From Thermococcus sp. 4557 (lineage in GTDB: Archaea > Methanobacteriota_B > Thermococci > Thermococcales > Thermococcaceae): 64,000 nt of DNA. The notes below the pieces were generated by a model that saw nothing but the letters and a program-made list of their open reading frames with translations, was not told where the DNA came from and did no database searches. Of the stretch, positions 26,955-30,395 are shown one piece after another; the stretch's first letter is position 1, and every line of letters begins with the position of its first letter. The position numbers and the translations under genes were made by a program. The stretch lies in the NCBI RefSeq assembly GCF_000221185.1, contig NC_015865.1:620001-684000 (forward strand), read 5' to 3'.

Positions 26955-27992
26955 ATGGTGGACATTGAACTGCTCAGGAAAATTGTGGAGGCGCCGGGCG
27001 TTTCCGGCTACGAGTTCCTTGGAATAAGGGACGTCGTTTTTGAGGCCCTGAAGGACCACGTGGACGAGATATACGTTGACAAGCTCGGCAACGTTATCGC
27101 CCACAAGAAGGGGAACGGGCCGAGAATAATGATCGCGGCCCACATGGACAAGATAGGCGTCATGGTCAACCACATAGACAAGGAGGGCTACCTCCACATA
27201 GTCCCCGTTGGAGGCGTTGACCCCAGAACCCTCGTCGCCCAGAGGATAAGGTTCTTCACCGAGAAGGGCGAGCGCTACGGCGTCGTCGGCCACATACCAC
27301 CGCACCTCCAGAAGCCCGAGGACAGGAAGAAGGCCGCGGACTGGGACACCATCGTTGTGGACGTCGGCGCTGACAGCAGGGAAGAAGCCGAGGAGATGGG
27401 CTTCCGCGTCGGAACCGTCGGTGAGTTCGCTCCAGCGTTCGTCCAGCTCAACGAGAACAGGATTGCGACGCCATACCTCGACGACCGCGTTTGCCTCTAC
27501 GCCATGATAGAGGCCGCCAGAAGGGTTGAGAACCACGAGGCGGACATCTACTTCGTTGCCTCCGTGCAGGAGGAGGTCGGCCTCCGCGGTGCTAGGGTCG
27601 CGAGCTACGCGATTGATCCGGAGATAGGCATAGCCATGGACGTCACCTTTGCCAAGCAGGTCGGCGACAAGGGTAAAATCGTGCCCAAGCTCGGCGGCGG
27701 CCCGGTCATGGACGTAGGTCCGAACATCAACCCCAAGGTTCGCGCCTTTGCCGATGAGGTTGCGGAGAAGTACGAGATACCGCTCCAGGTCGAGGCCAGC
27801 CCGAGGCCGACCGGAACCGACGCCAACATAATGCAGATCAACCGCGAGGGCGTTGCGACGGCCGTTCTCAGCATACCGATACGCTACATGCACAGCCAGG
27901 TCGAGACCGCCGACCTGAGGGACATAGACAAGACCATCGAGTTCGCCAGGCGCTTCCTCGAGGAGCTTCGCGAGATGGATCTCACTCCGTGA
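26955..27992 (+). CDS. M42 family aminopeptidase (TET-type)
   Basis: Cobalt/zinc peptidase of the self-compartmentalising tetrahedral (TET) family, 345 residues, cytosolic. Metal ligands and catalytic residues are visible in order: AAHMDKIGV (His/Asp), [11 protein letters not shown] (Asp), [11 protein letters not shown] (catalytic Glu pair), IAMDVTFAK (Asp) and [10 protein letters not shown] (His). Related enzymes remove N-terminal residues from peptides; which residue preference applies here cannot be read. AAAGGAGGCG precedes the ATG, and a TATA-like CTTATTAAGCC lies further up. Confidence 0.93.
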
Positions 27993-28096
27993 GCATCAGG
28001 TATAACCGAGTTTTACCCTCTTTTTTCCATTATAAAGCCCGATTCCCCGGGAAAAGTTTATACTCCAAACCACCATAATATATACCGGTGGGGAGC

Positions 28097-28483
28097 GTGG
28101 AATATGAGGAGGTTCTGAAAAGCGTGAGGCTCATCATGGAAGGGATGCCCGCCTCCGTCGAGGAGTTCAAATCCATGGGACTCGCGCGGGATGGGGTGTA
28201 CAAAAGGCTCGAGTTCGCTATCGGGGTGGTTCTGGATGGGCTCTCAGAACTCGCGAGGGAGCACGACATTATCGCCCTGTCGTACAAGGAGATAGTTGAA
28301 GGCCTCTCGGAGAAAGGAGTAATTCCCGAAAGCGTCGCGGATAAGGCGATTTTCCTGGCCCAGCTCAGGGAGGTTCTCATCTACGACTATGATTTGGTAA
28401 ACGATGAAATGGCATTCAGAGACATGGATGAGTATCTCGAATTCATCGAGACTGTCCTGGACTTCCTGGAGGGGTCCCGGTGA
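28097..28483 (+). CDS. HepT-like (DUF86) protein with altered motif
   Basis: A 128-residue all-helical protein from a GTG start (GGTGGGG upstream; GTG at 28088 is an alternative). It resembles HepT/DUF86, the toxin that works with a MntA-type nucleotidyltransferase. The usual RX4HXY motif appears as REVLIYDYD, with the histidine replaced by tyrosine, so RNase-type activity is unlikely if the assignment is right. No nucleotidyltransferase gene is adjacent. Its stop overlaps the archaemetzincin GTG by four bases, placing it first in a four-gene operon. Confidence 0.65.
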   Translation: MEYEEVLKSVRLIMEGMPASVEEFKSMGLARDGVYKRLEFAIGVVLDGLSELAREHDIIALSYKEIVEGLSEKGVIPESVADKAIFLAQLREVLIYDYDLVNDEMAFRDMDEYLEFIETVLDFLEGSR

Positions 28484-29034
28484 TACTCGTTGTGCCCGTG
28501 GGTGGTGTGGACACCGGAACCGTAGAGGCGGTTTCAAGGTTCGTTGACAGCTACTATTCCCGTTTGAGCCTCCCGGTCAGGGTGTCCGATACTATACCCG
28601 CAGAATGGTTCTCGGACGCGTACAATCCCTCCAGGGACCAGTTCCTCGGCAGGGTGTTTCTAGAGGCCCTTGGGGAGATAAGAGCAAAAACCGGGGCGAG
28701 GGCGGTTCTTGGAATCACATCCCTCGACCTCTACGAGAAGGGTCTCAACTTTATATTCGGGCTCGCCCACCCCGGGATGGGCGCCGCGGTCATTTCAACC
28801 TTCCGCCTTCGGCCCGAGTTCTACGGGGAGAGGTCCAACGCGAATCTGCTGGTTGAAAGGGCGGTTAAAGAGGCCATGCACGAGCTCGGCCACGTCTTCG
28901 GCCTGGGACACTGTCCGAACAGACTGTGCGTAATGCACTTCTCCAATTCCATACTCGACACGGACGTGAAGGGGCCGTACTACTGCACGTCCTGTGAGCT
29001 CAAACTGAAGAAAAACCTGGGGGTGATTTCATGA
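28480..29034 (+). CDS. amzA: Archaemetzincin metalloprotease
   Basis: Zinc metalloprotease of the archaemetzincin family, 184 residues. The zinc site HELGHVFGLGHC (residues ~129-140) is followed by the family cysteines and methionine (CPNRLCVMHFS) and a second CxxC (YCTSC) that binds a structural zinc. The GTG start overlaps the preceding stop as GTGA and its own stop overlaps the next ATG. Physiological substrates are unknown for the family. Confidence 0.95.
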   Translation: MILVVPVGGVDTGTVEAVSRFVDSYYSRLSLPVRVSDTIPAEWFSDAYNPSRDQFLGRVFLEALGEIRAKTGARAVLGITSLDLYEKGLNFIFGLAHPGMGAAVISTFRLRPEFYGERSNANLLVERAVKEAMHELGHVFGLGHCPNRLCVMHFSNSILDTDVKGPYYCTSCELKLKKNLGVIS

Positions 29035-29564
29035 TTGAGATAGAGATCAAAGGGTACGCGGATGATAAAATCTTCAGCAGGGTCAGGGAGAACTTCGAGA
29101 TGATACGGAAGGAGTATCACGAGGACACGTACTTTCAGCACCCCTGCAGGGACTTCGCCGAGACTGACGAGGCGCTCAGGATAAGGGTGAGGCGCTTCAA
29201 CGGGCACTTCGAGGCGTTTCTGACGTACAAAGGACCGAAGATAGACTCGAACTCAAAGACACGGAAGGAAATCGAAGTCCCGCTCAGCGATCCGGACAAG
29301 CACGCCGAGATACTGGCTCGCCTGGGCTTCAGGGAGGTCATGACCGTTGAAAAGGTCAGGGAGAAGTACTACGTGGACAAGGGAATTGTCATAGCACTGG
29401 ACGAGATCGACAGGCTCGGGAAGTTCATAGAGATAGAGGCCCTGGCCGAGAGCGAGGAGGCCGTGGAAGAGACCGTGAGGCGGCTGAGGAAGATACTTGA
29501 AGAACTGGGGGTAAAACGCTTTGAGAGACGTTCGTACCTCGAGCTCCTGCTTGAAAGGAGATGA
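29031..29564 (+). CDS. CYTH domain protein (class IV adenylate cyclase/CyaB-like)
   Basis: Triphosphate tunnel metalloenzyme of 177 residues. The hallmark ExExK motif is at residues 3-7 (EIEIK), and the tunnel's basic/acidic strands follow (EALRIRVRR, FLTYKGPK, SKTRKEIEV, VIALDEIDRLGKFIEIE). Family members make cAMP or hydrolyse triphosphates or thiamine triphosphate; the sequence alone does not decide. The ATG overlaps the archaemetzincin stop (ATGA), so it is translated together with that protease. Confidence 0.9.
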   Translation: MIEIEIKGYADDKIFSRVRENFEMIRKEYHEDTYFQHPCRDFAETDEALRIRVRRFNGHFEAFLTYKGPKIDSNSKTRKEIEVPLSDPDKHAEILARLGFREVMTVEKVREKYYVDKGIVIALDEIDRLGKFIEIEALAESEEAVEETVRRLRKILEELGVKRFERRSYLELLLERR

Positions 29565-29567
29565 GCT

Positions 29568-30395
29568 ATGGGGAAGCTTGATGAGTTCTTTAAATCCCTG
29601 GGAGGGGAGAAGAAGCGCTCCGAACTGGAGGTTCTGGAGGAGATCGAGGCGTACCTCCATGAGGGCGGGATAGACGAAGCCATCGCAAAGCTCCCTGAAC
29701 TCAAAAGGGAGCACAACCTCTTCCTCGCCCTCAGGATGATAGTGCGCGCCATAGTCGAAACGCTCGACGAGGCTGAGAGGCAGGGCACCCTCACAGACGA
29801 TGAAATAGGGATGATAAAGGAGAAGGTTCGGAGCCTGATTCCCGCCGTGAACGGCCTGTTAACCAAGCGCTATCGTGCCATTCTCCTCTCAGACCTGGCG
29901 GTTCTGTTTTACCGGCTAGACGACGAGCTCAATGGGGACCTCGCACTGAAGACCGCAATAAACCTCGCGGGGGACGATGCCGATATAGTGAGGGACATCA
30001 TTATGGAGCTCGTGAAGAGGGGGCTTTTGGCGAAGGCGGGCTACGCCATCAAGATGGCAAAGAATCAGGAAACCATTGACGTCGTGCTGGTCAATCTTGC
30101 GGAGAGCTTCTACCTCGCGGGCGACGAAAAGAGGGCGGCGTTGATATTGAAGCACATATCCCATCCGTTCCAGAGGGCCATGGCGCTCTACTACATGGCG
30201 TCCGTAGAGGGAGAGCGGGACCGGAAAAAGGCCCTCCGTCTTCTTGAAGCGGCCTTTGAGGAGGCAGAGAAGGTTGAATCTCCCGACGCGAGGTTCGAGC
30301 TCATGCTGAAGCTTTACGACCTCAAACACAGTCTTTTGGGGGAGAGCTTCAACGTGAGGGACGTCCTATCCTGGAGAGGAGCTCCTCAGGAGTGA
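29568..30395 (+). CDS. Helical-repeat protein of unknown function
   Basis: A 275-residue soluble protein, nearly all alpha-helical, with helix pairs resembling TPR or HEAT repeats between residues ~85 and ~250 (for example AILLSDLAVLFYRLDDELNGDL and ETIDVVLVNLAESFYLAGDE, partly quoted in spirit of paired helices). It begins MGKLDEFFKSLGG three bases after the CYTH stop and closes the operon. Such repeats usually hold protein partners, so a scaffold for its operon mates is plausible but unproven. The last 47 bases overlap the convergent ECF ATPase gene. Confidence 0.75.
   Translation: MGKLDEFFKSLGGEKKRSELEVLEEIEAYLHEGGIDEAIAKLPELKREHNLFLALRMIVRAIVETLDEAERQGTLTDDEIGMIKEKVRSLIPAVNGLLTKRYRAILLSDLAVLFYRLDDELNGDLALKTAINLAGDDADIVRDIIMELVKRGLLAKAGYAIKMAKNQETIDVVLVNLAESFYLAGDEKRAALILKHISHPFQRAMALYYMASVEGERDRKKALRLLEAAFEEAEKVESPDARFELMLKLYDLKHSLLGESFNVRDVLSWRGAPQE

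Follow-up and report, generated by a model that had tools for sequence, protein, structure and literature searches.

The DNA considered here, which I will call the window, is a 64-kb stretch of a 2.01-Mb Thermococcus genome of the genus labelled g1. Four genes lie in a row on its forward strand (Table 1), encoding a HepT-like protein, an archaemetzincin, a CYTH protein and a helical-repeat protein. An earlier note, made from the sequence alone, had described positions 28097-30395 as a four-gene row with tight junctions, and this description stands: the first two genes overlap in the bases GTGA (28480-28483), the second and third in ATGA (29031-29034), and a gap of three bases (29565-29567) separates the third from the fourth.

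Table 1. The gene row, its upstream neighbour and the element preceding it. Positions are those of the window.
Feature	Position	Strand	Remarks
HepT-like (HEPN) protein, Rx4YxY type, 128 aa	28097..28483	+	GTG start; alternative GTG 28088
Archaemetzincin (peptidase M54), 184 aa	28480..29034	+	GTG start; HELGHVFGLGHC...C.M...C..C intact
CYTH / triphosphate tunnel metalloenzyme, 177 aa	29031..29564	+	ATG start; EIEIK, ALRIR, FIEIE
Helical-repeat (TPR-like alpha-solenoid) protein, 275 aa	29568..30395	+	ATG start; AlphaFold2 model
M42-type aminopeptidase gene, upstream syntenic neighbour	26955..27992	+	tblastn
Probable BRE/TATA promoter element GAAAAGTTTATA, HepT-first transcript	28051..28062	+	

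The upstream neighbour is a gene that I take, from its sequence, to encode an M42-type aminopeptidase. It stops 104 bp short of the HepT-like gene in the window, while nine genomes of genus g3 have a gap of 5-6 bp or an overlap of 1 bp at this place; in the window genome the M42 gene is probably on a separate transcript. The element that I read as a BRE/TATA promoter has a position that fits a transcript beginning at the HepT-like gene. Among the 19 genomes inspected, of the 30 that carry the HepT-like gene, all 13 from genus g1 have GAAA, one or two further bases and GTTTAT about 35-46 bases before the start, and the remaining six have other A/T-rich stretches there.

Tight junctions by themselves are nothing special in this genome: among the 43 codirectional gene neighbours that a script called in the window, 25 are at most 20 bp apart and 7 have a 4-bp overlap. 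The gene caller was trained on the window alone and is unreliable at some loci (e.g., G093), and the synteny counts that follow were taken from tblastn instead.

Conservation of the gene row

Each of the four proteins was searched against 94 genomes of Thermococcaceae. The HepT-like protein found matches in 52 genomes (paralogues included), the helical protein in 62, and the archaemetzincin and the CYTH protein in 92 each (second copies included in both). The operon-type CYTH gene was found in 91 of the 94 genomes, and the three without a find (G081, G083 and G088) are assemblies of 75-79% completeness. One region around this gene was taken from each genome, giving 91 different loci (90 and the window), all picked by CYTH. 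By tblastn, the order of genes in these loci is M42 aminopeptidase, HepT-like protein where present, archaemetzincin where present, CYTH protein, and helical (TPR-like) protein where present. The earlier note had staked its reading on an order conserved across Thermococcales, and the order is indeed kept in six genera of Thermococcaceae.

The M42 gene lies upstream in 87 of 91 loci, the misses being three loci from genus g2 and one contig end. An intact archaemetzincin gene stands directly before CYTH in 70 of 90 scorable loci, spread over six genera, and is absent or broken in 20 (one more locus is unscorable); truncated or frameshifted copies are seen in G027, G054 and G077 (loci L039, L072 and L112). 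The HepT-like gene is present in 30 of 87 scorable loci and absent from 57, with four more unscorable, and the TPR-like gene is present, sometimes broken, in 60 of 86 and absent from 26, with five more unscorable. One HepT-like gene, that of G080, is frameshifted before the motif; it is counted among the 30 present copies and not among the 29 intact ones. A search of 60 gaps in loci lacking the HepT-like gene found no convincing remnant of it (best E 0.064).

Every one of the 70 intact protease genes ends within 20 bp of CYTH. When a few truncated protease genes are included, the spacing between the two is at most 20 bp in 72 of 74 genomes, with a 4-bp overlap in 53. The HepT-like and protease genes are equally close in 26 of 27 scorable genomes (a 4-bp overlap in 21), and CYTH and the TPR-like gene in 56 of 58. 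It is the conservation of tight spacing across genomes that is above chance, not the tightness itself. In three genomes of genus g2, the trio of HepT-like, protease and CYTH genes stays together though the M42 gene is absent.

The minimum number of gains and losses, on a quick tree of CYTH and M42 with many unresolved forks, is 9 for the HepT-like gene, 12 for the protease gene and 8 for the TPR-like gene. In the 87 loci scored for both, 44 have the protease without the HepT-like gene, and five (in G017, G027, G029, G040 and G077) keep the HepT-like gene without an intact protease. Since each is found without the other, they are not an obligate pair, and their presence is not significantly associated in a comparison whose independent pairs (5 and 6) are too few to tell. 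In these loci, which were themselves chosen by CYTH, the CYTH gene is the stable core and the other genes are modules.

This linkage did not turn up outside the family. Neither an archaemetzincin nor a HepT gene lies near CYTH in 30 loci (of 31 matches, in 40 genomes, with flanks of about 1.5 kb); the sole other gene of the row found there is a piece of an M42 gene in L254. Likewise, none of 40 distinct archaemetzincin loci (41 in total, L128 being the same as L296) has a CYTH, HepT or MNT gene nearby. Eleven of the 41 come from other families of the class, with flanks of up to 5 kb, and 30 (of 31 matches) from those 40 genomes, which belong to other archaea, with flanks of about 1.5 kb, several being cut by contig ends; one M42 match, in L287, appeared among them. 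Both counts are to be read with the sample in mind: the 40 outgroup genomes were picked for holding a HepT relative and so were not sampled at random, and looser links would escape such short flanks. Within Thermococcaceae, the gene row is a real, old and family-specific operon.

As a separate matter, in 11 of the outgroup loci (L275, L277-L280, L283, L284, L287, L288, L291 and L301) the archaemetzincin gene lies near one recurring ORF, whose L277 copy has only sub-cutoff matches, to lid domains of replication factor C.

The HepT-like protein and its relatives

The first protein of the row scores 41.2 bits against PF01934 (cutoff 23.5), which is matched by all 26 members of the HepT-like set, and 42.1 bits against the HepT_toxin equivalog NF047751, under the cutoff of 60. 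The best PDB match by Foldseek to its AlphaFold2 model (pLDDT 93.3) is the HepT of the Shewanella HepT/MntA complex (6m6u_H, TM 0.86). With the Pfam cutoff passed and a HepT fold, the membership in the HepT family proposed by the earlier note is confirmed. The two peculiarities it had pointed out are also general. A tyrosine replaces the motif histidine in the window protein (R91-EVLI-Y96-D-Y98), and Rx4YxY is found in 29 of 29 intact operon copies. The nucleotidyltransferase (MNT) partner, marked by GSx10DxD, is missing as well: a purpose-built MNT profile finds none in the 91 operon loci. As a control, this profile recovers 9 of the 10 PF01909 loci of the window genome, all 10 of which are outside the 64-kb window.

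Relatives were found by two peptide patterns in a collection with one genome for each of 84,980 species. Of 102 matching stretches the scan listed 80 loci, and complete genomes of Thermococcus close to that of the window are apparently not among them. Among the matches listed, the operon loci of Thermococcaceae (L146-L152) are alone in having LR[ED][VI][LF][IV]Y[DN]Y; the others, which come from methanogens, Asgard archaea, Thermoplasmata and Thermococcaceae, look like toxins in every case with a readable motif. A locus reading FRNxxVHRY is unable to match the first pattern and so was not picked for its motif. I examined 76 loci as relatives (L153-L225 and L140-L142), of which 75 have a HepT match; 11 low-scoring rows, mostly fragments, were left out, giving 64 aligned sequences (those of L202 and L205 are identical). 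An MNT gene is directly upstream in 66 of the 75 by a strict distance rule. The nine misses are five contig ends, two loci (L140 and L167) with an MNT-like ORF on a looser look, and two (L212 and L223) with none.

The comparison of the two sets is sharp. The column of Y96 holds tyrosine in 29 of 29 operon copies and histidine, as Rx4HxY, in 64 of 64 aligned relatives; the relatives have N at the column of E92 (63/64), G at that of D99 (63/64) and an MNT gene directly upstream (57/64). Among the operon copies R91 and both tyrosines are invariant in the 26 aligned members, and Y96 and Y98 in all 29 intact copies. At position 92 the intact copies have E or D and at 97 D or N; leucine occupies position 90 in all 29, aspartate position 99 in 27, glutamine position 89 in 23 and a hydrophobic residue position 88 in 26. 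Columns 88-90, 92, 97 and 99 are switched, with little or no overlap between operon copies and relatives, and column 95 mostly so. Residues 86-102 carry a mean net charge of -1.6 in the operon copies as against +2.7 in the toxin-like relatives. By this alignment, the RNase site K-G-F-R-N-x-x-V-H-R-Y-G is replaced by an equally conserved x-Q-L-R-E/D-x-x-I-Y-D/N-Y-D. The tyrosine of Rx4HxY is the one that receives AMP in HepT/MntA (PMC7641770, in excerpt), and the operon copies retain the equivalent residue, Y98, despite having lost the MNT partner.

A quick tree with long branches, built from 127 columns after removal of those of the motif, joins the operon copies in a single clade (SH-aLRT 99.9). 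The clade adjoins the Rx4HxY form found in Thermococcaceae beside a GHMP kinase gene, with a joint support of 93.6 that is not decisive; I presume the kinase to be mevalonate kinase. Judged by their sequences, the HepT-like genes derive from the archaeal stock of HepT/MntA toxin-antitoxin genes, with loss of the MNT gene. With HepT/MntA (HEPN/MNT, type VII) they share this stock, the fold, PF01934, the invariant arginine and the second tyrosine; they differ in having His replaced by Tyr, Asn by Glu or Asp, an acidic site, no MNT, and a place in an operon of enzymes.

The ratio dN/dS of the HepT-like gene is 0.05-0.22 in 10 of 12 pairs of genomes; in the other two, whose dS is very low, it is 0.55 and 1.11. 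The ten low ratios indicate that the gene is mostly under purifying selection, which speaks for the replacement of one site by another conserved site and not for decay. The HepT-like protein is thus probably a conserved, non-RNase derivative of the HepT/MntA toxin. A seeming relaxation of selection in a pair lacking the protease (G029/G040, Fisher p 0.0012) was rejected as evidence: compared with G026/G038, non-synonymous changes are similar (14 vs 10), and it is the synonymous count (3 vs 11) that is low. It also concerns a single pair chosen post hoc. Also rejected was the reading of the operon as an anti-phage defence system, since none of the four proteins matched a PADLOC model at E <= 0.01.

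Ordinary HepT/MNT pairs are found elsewhere in the family. They lie directly before the GHMP kinase gene in L141:4904-6423 (G023), where the kinase was matched to a profile, and in L140 and L142, and in G023 a second, different pair is right behind the first. The window genome has a further pair at L139:5152-5632 (G000:C1 about 1613.5-1614.1 kb), whose HepT is matched in two overlapping frames and is probably broken.

The protease, the CYTH protein and the helical protein

The archaemetzincin scores 196.1 bits against NF033823 (cutoff 145) and 102.4 against PF07998 (cutoff 24.4). Of 70 full-length orthologues, 68 have the full motif HExxHxxGxxHCx4CxM...CxxC, and those of G001 and G012 lack only its Gly; the zinc motif and the Cys4 site are those of the archaemetzincins 2x7m, 3zvs and AMZ-tk (TK0512; PMC4681839, in excerpt). 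The spacing from Met to Cys is 16 residues in the operon protein, vs 17 counted in papers. There is a second, longer archaemetzincin of 231 aa in the window genome (G000:C1 about 199.6-200.3 kb). AMZ-tk, a protein of 27.6 kDa with zinc ligands at His182-His192 (PMC4681839, in excerpt), would by its size correspond to this longer protein and not to that of the operon.

The CYTH protein scores 149.2 bits against TIGR00318 (cutoff 57.95) and 121.3 against PF01928. The name of the former, class IV adenylate cyclase, points to a cyclase and is no proof of one: the model also matches in Sulfolobus acidocaldarius, the source of SaTTM. According to the excerpted text of PMC8233210, the annotation of archaeal CYTH proteins as cyclases lacked experimental backing, cyclic nucleotides are not made by SaTTM, and the archaeal members, those of Pyrococcus included, cluster with SaTTM apart from the cyclases. 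The same text names three marks by which a class IV cyclase is known, namely HF ahead of ExExK, a missing central Arg, and Ala in place of the second Glu of ExE. HFxxxxExExK is found in none of 90 CYTH orthologues, and the window protein has only two residues before ExExK. The central Arg is kept, in ALR[IV]R, in 91 of 91 orthologues, as are both Glu of ExE (90 of 91 by pattern, the last, in G059, reading FVEME). The marks of triphosphatases (ExExK, a small residue followed by xRxR, and ExE) are present in all 91, one ExE being read by eye. The two best PDB matches, PH1819 (2een) and then SaTTM (Saci_0718; 7ns8), share ExExK, AxRxR and ExE with the protein, SaTTM being the distant one (phmmer 100 bits vs 248 for PH1819). 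With the cyclase marks all failing and those of triphosphatases kept, the protein is predicted to be a triphosphatase, and synthesis of cAMP is unlikely. Of the two activities that the earlier note had allowed, the cleavage of a triphosphate is thus retained, and cAMP synthesis is not expected.

A second CYTH gene of the window genome, at L138:4854-6383 (G000:C1 about 342.9-344.4 kb), is in a tight row of its own with a regulator of the Lrp/AsnC type and a gene of a flavoprotein family.

The helical protein consists of helices only in its AlphaFold2 model (pLDDT 89.8). Foldseek ranks TPR and further solenoid proteins highest, without any match at E <= 1e-3, and TPR profiles give the window protein 12.9-13.3 bits, below their cutoffs; TPR_19 is matched in 18 of 50 relatives (E <= 0.01). 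It is plausibly an adaptor.

Joint function and its meaning

The striking feature of the operon is its disarmed HepT relative; a joint function of the genes is something that I infer. The overall explanation that I favour, tentatively and with a probability of about 0.45, is that the HepT-like protein is a non-catalytic HEPN subunit or regulator of the protease and the triphosphatase. It would no longer be an RNase and would have become a dimeric, non-catalytic HEPN protein, and the CYTH protein would cleave inorganic or organic triphosphates, making no cAMP. Least certain are the remaining steps, in which the HepT-like protein would be made together with the protease by translational coupling and might serve as a regulator or scaffold of the protease and triphosphatase. 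MtlR, a HEPN regulator of the mannitol operon that in large part lacks the motif, has been proposed to regulate its own operon (PMC3710099, in excerpt), and like the HepT-like protein it is a HEPN protein without the RNase motif encoded together with enzymes. With this precedent of a motif-less HEPN protein, regulation of its own operon may serve as a model for the role of the HepT-like protein. The HepT-like protein belongs to another HEPN family, and its acidic site argues against a mode like that of MtlR in which RNA is bound. Against the favoured explanation is the fact that the HepT-like gene and the protease come and go separately. A fuller history, in which an RNase toxin was disarmed once in the ancestor of Thermococcaceae, its antitoxin dropped and its site rebuilt for binding, to end as a dedicated subunit of an archaemetzincin/triphosphatase complex, is doubtful when taken as a whole.

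The main rival, itself somewhat unlikely, is a row of genes without any joint function, in which the CYTH triphosphatase does a housekeeping task and the other three genes (protease, HepT-like and TPR-like) are passengers on its transcript, lost singly. It accords with the presence of CYTH in 91 of 94 genomes as against 70 of 90 scorable loci for the protease, 30 of 87 for the HepT-like gene and 60 of 86 for the TPR-like gene, with the unassociated presence of HepT-like gene and protease (the independent pairs being too few to tell), and with tight spacing being common in the window genome. It does not readily account for adjacency kept so long, with 4-bp overlaps, or for a trio that is intact where M42 is absent.

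It is improbable that toxin or RNase activity persists in the HepT-like protein, through Tyr96 or another residue, with the protease in place of the antitoxin. R91 and both tyrosines are invariant in the 26 aligned members, and motif-less HEPN proteins can be toxic (PMC3710099, in excerpt), but the site has changed at several positions simultaneously (N to E/D, R to D/N, G to D, and K mostly to a hydrophobic residue), five genomes keep the HepT-like gene without an intact protease, and 44 of 87 loci scored for both have the protease without the HepT-like gene. More improbable is that Tyr98 is modified in trans by other MNT enzymes of the genome, so switching the HEPN dimer: Tyr98 is invariant and there are 10 MNT-type matches elsewhere in the genome, but none belongs closely with the MNT proteins paired with the nearest HepT relatives, the best reaching 25 bits with the purpose-built profile. 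Least probable of all is the model of the earlier note, a nucleotide signal made or destroyed by the CYTH protein and controlling proteolysis by the archaemetzincin, which is not supported in spite of the tight and conserved linkage of the two genes, given that the three class IV cyclase marks are all absent, that the characterised archaeal SaTTM makes no cyclic nucleotide (PMC8233210, in excerpt), and that 20 of 90 scorable loci keep CYTH with the protease gene missing or damaged.

An association of archaemetzincin with CYTH in archaea was not found in the literature searched, which covered few subscription journals; HEPN and CYTH are named alongside archaea in a single paper there, on the classification of structures. 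PMC3710099, on inactive HEPN domains and MtlR, has no mention of zincins, metalloproteases, CyaB or Thermococcus and uses the word peptidase twice; PMC3427221, on archaemetzincins, has none of operon, gene neighbours, gene context, biological function, Pyrococcus or Thermococcus. Very little is known of the biological importance of archaemetzincins (PMC3427221, in excerpt), and the physiological role of CYTH proteins is still largely elusive (PMC8233210, in excerpt).

A conserved operon linking these two kinds of protein with a disarmed relative of HepT offers a concrete, testable set of partners, in organisms for which genetic methods are available. The HepT-like protein is also a clean example of the toxin of a toxin-antitoxin pair rebuilt, six positions of the active site having changed along with the catalytic histidine. 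If it is truly a dedicated subunit of an archaemetzincin/triphosphatase complex, the operon would provide a first handle on what archaemetzincins are for.
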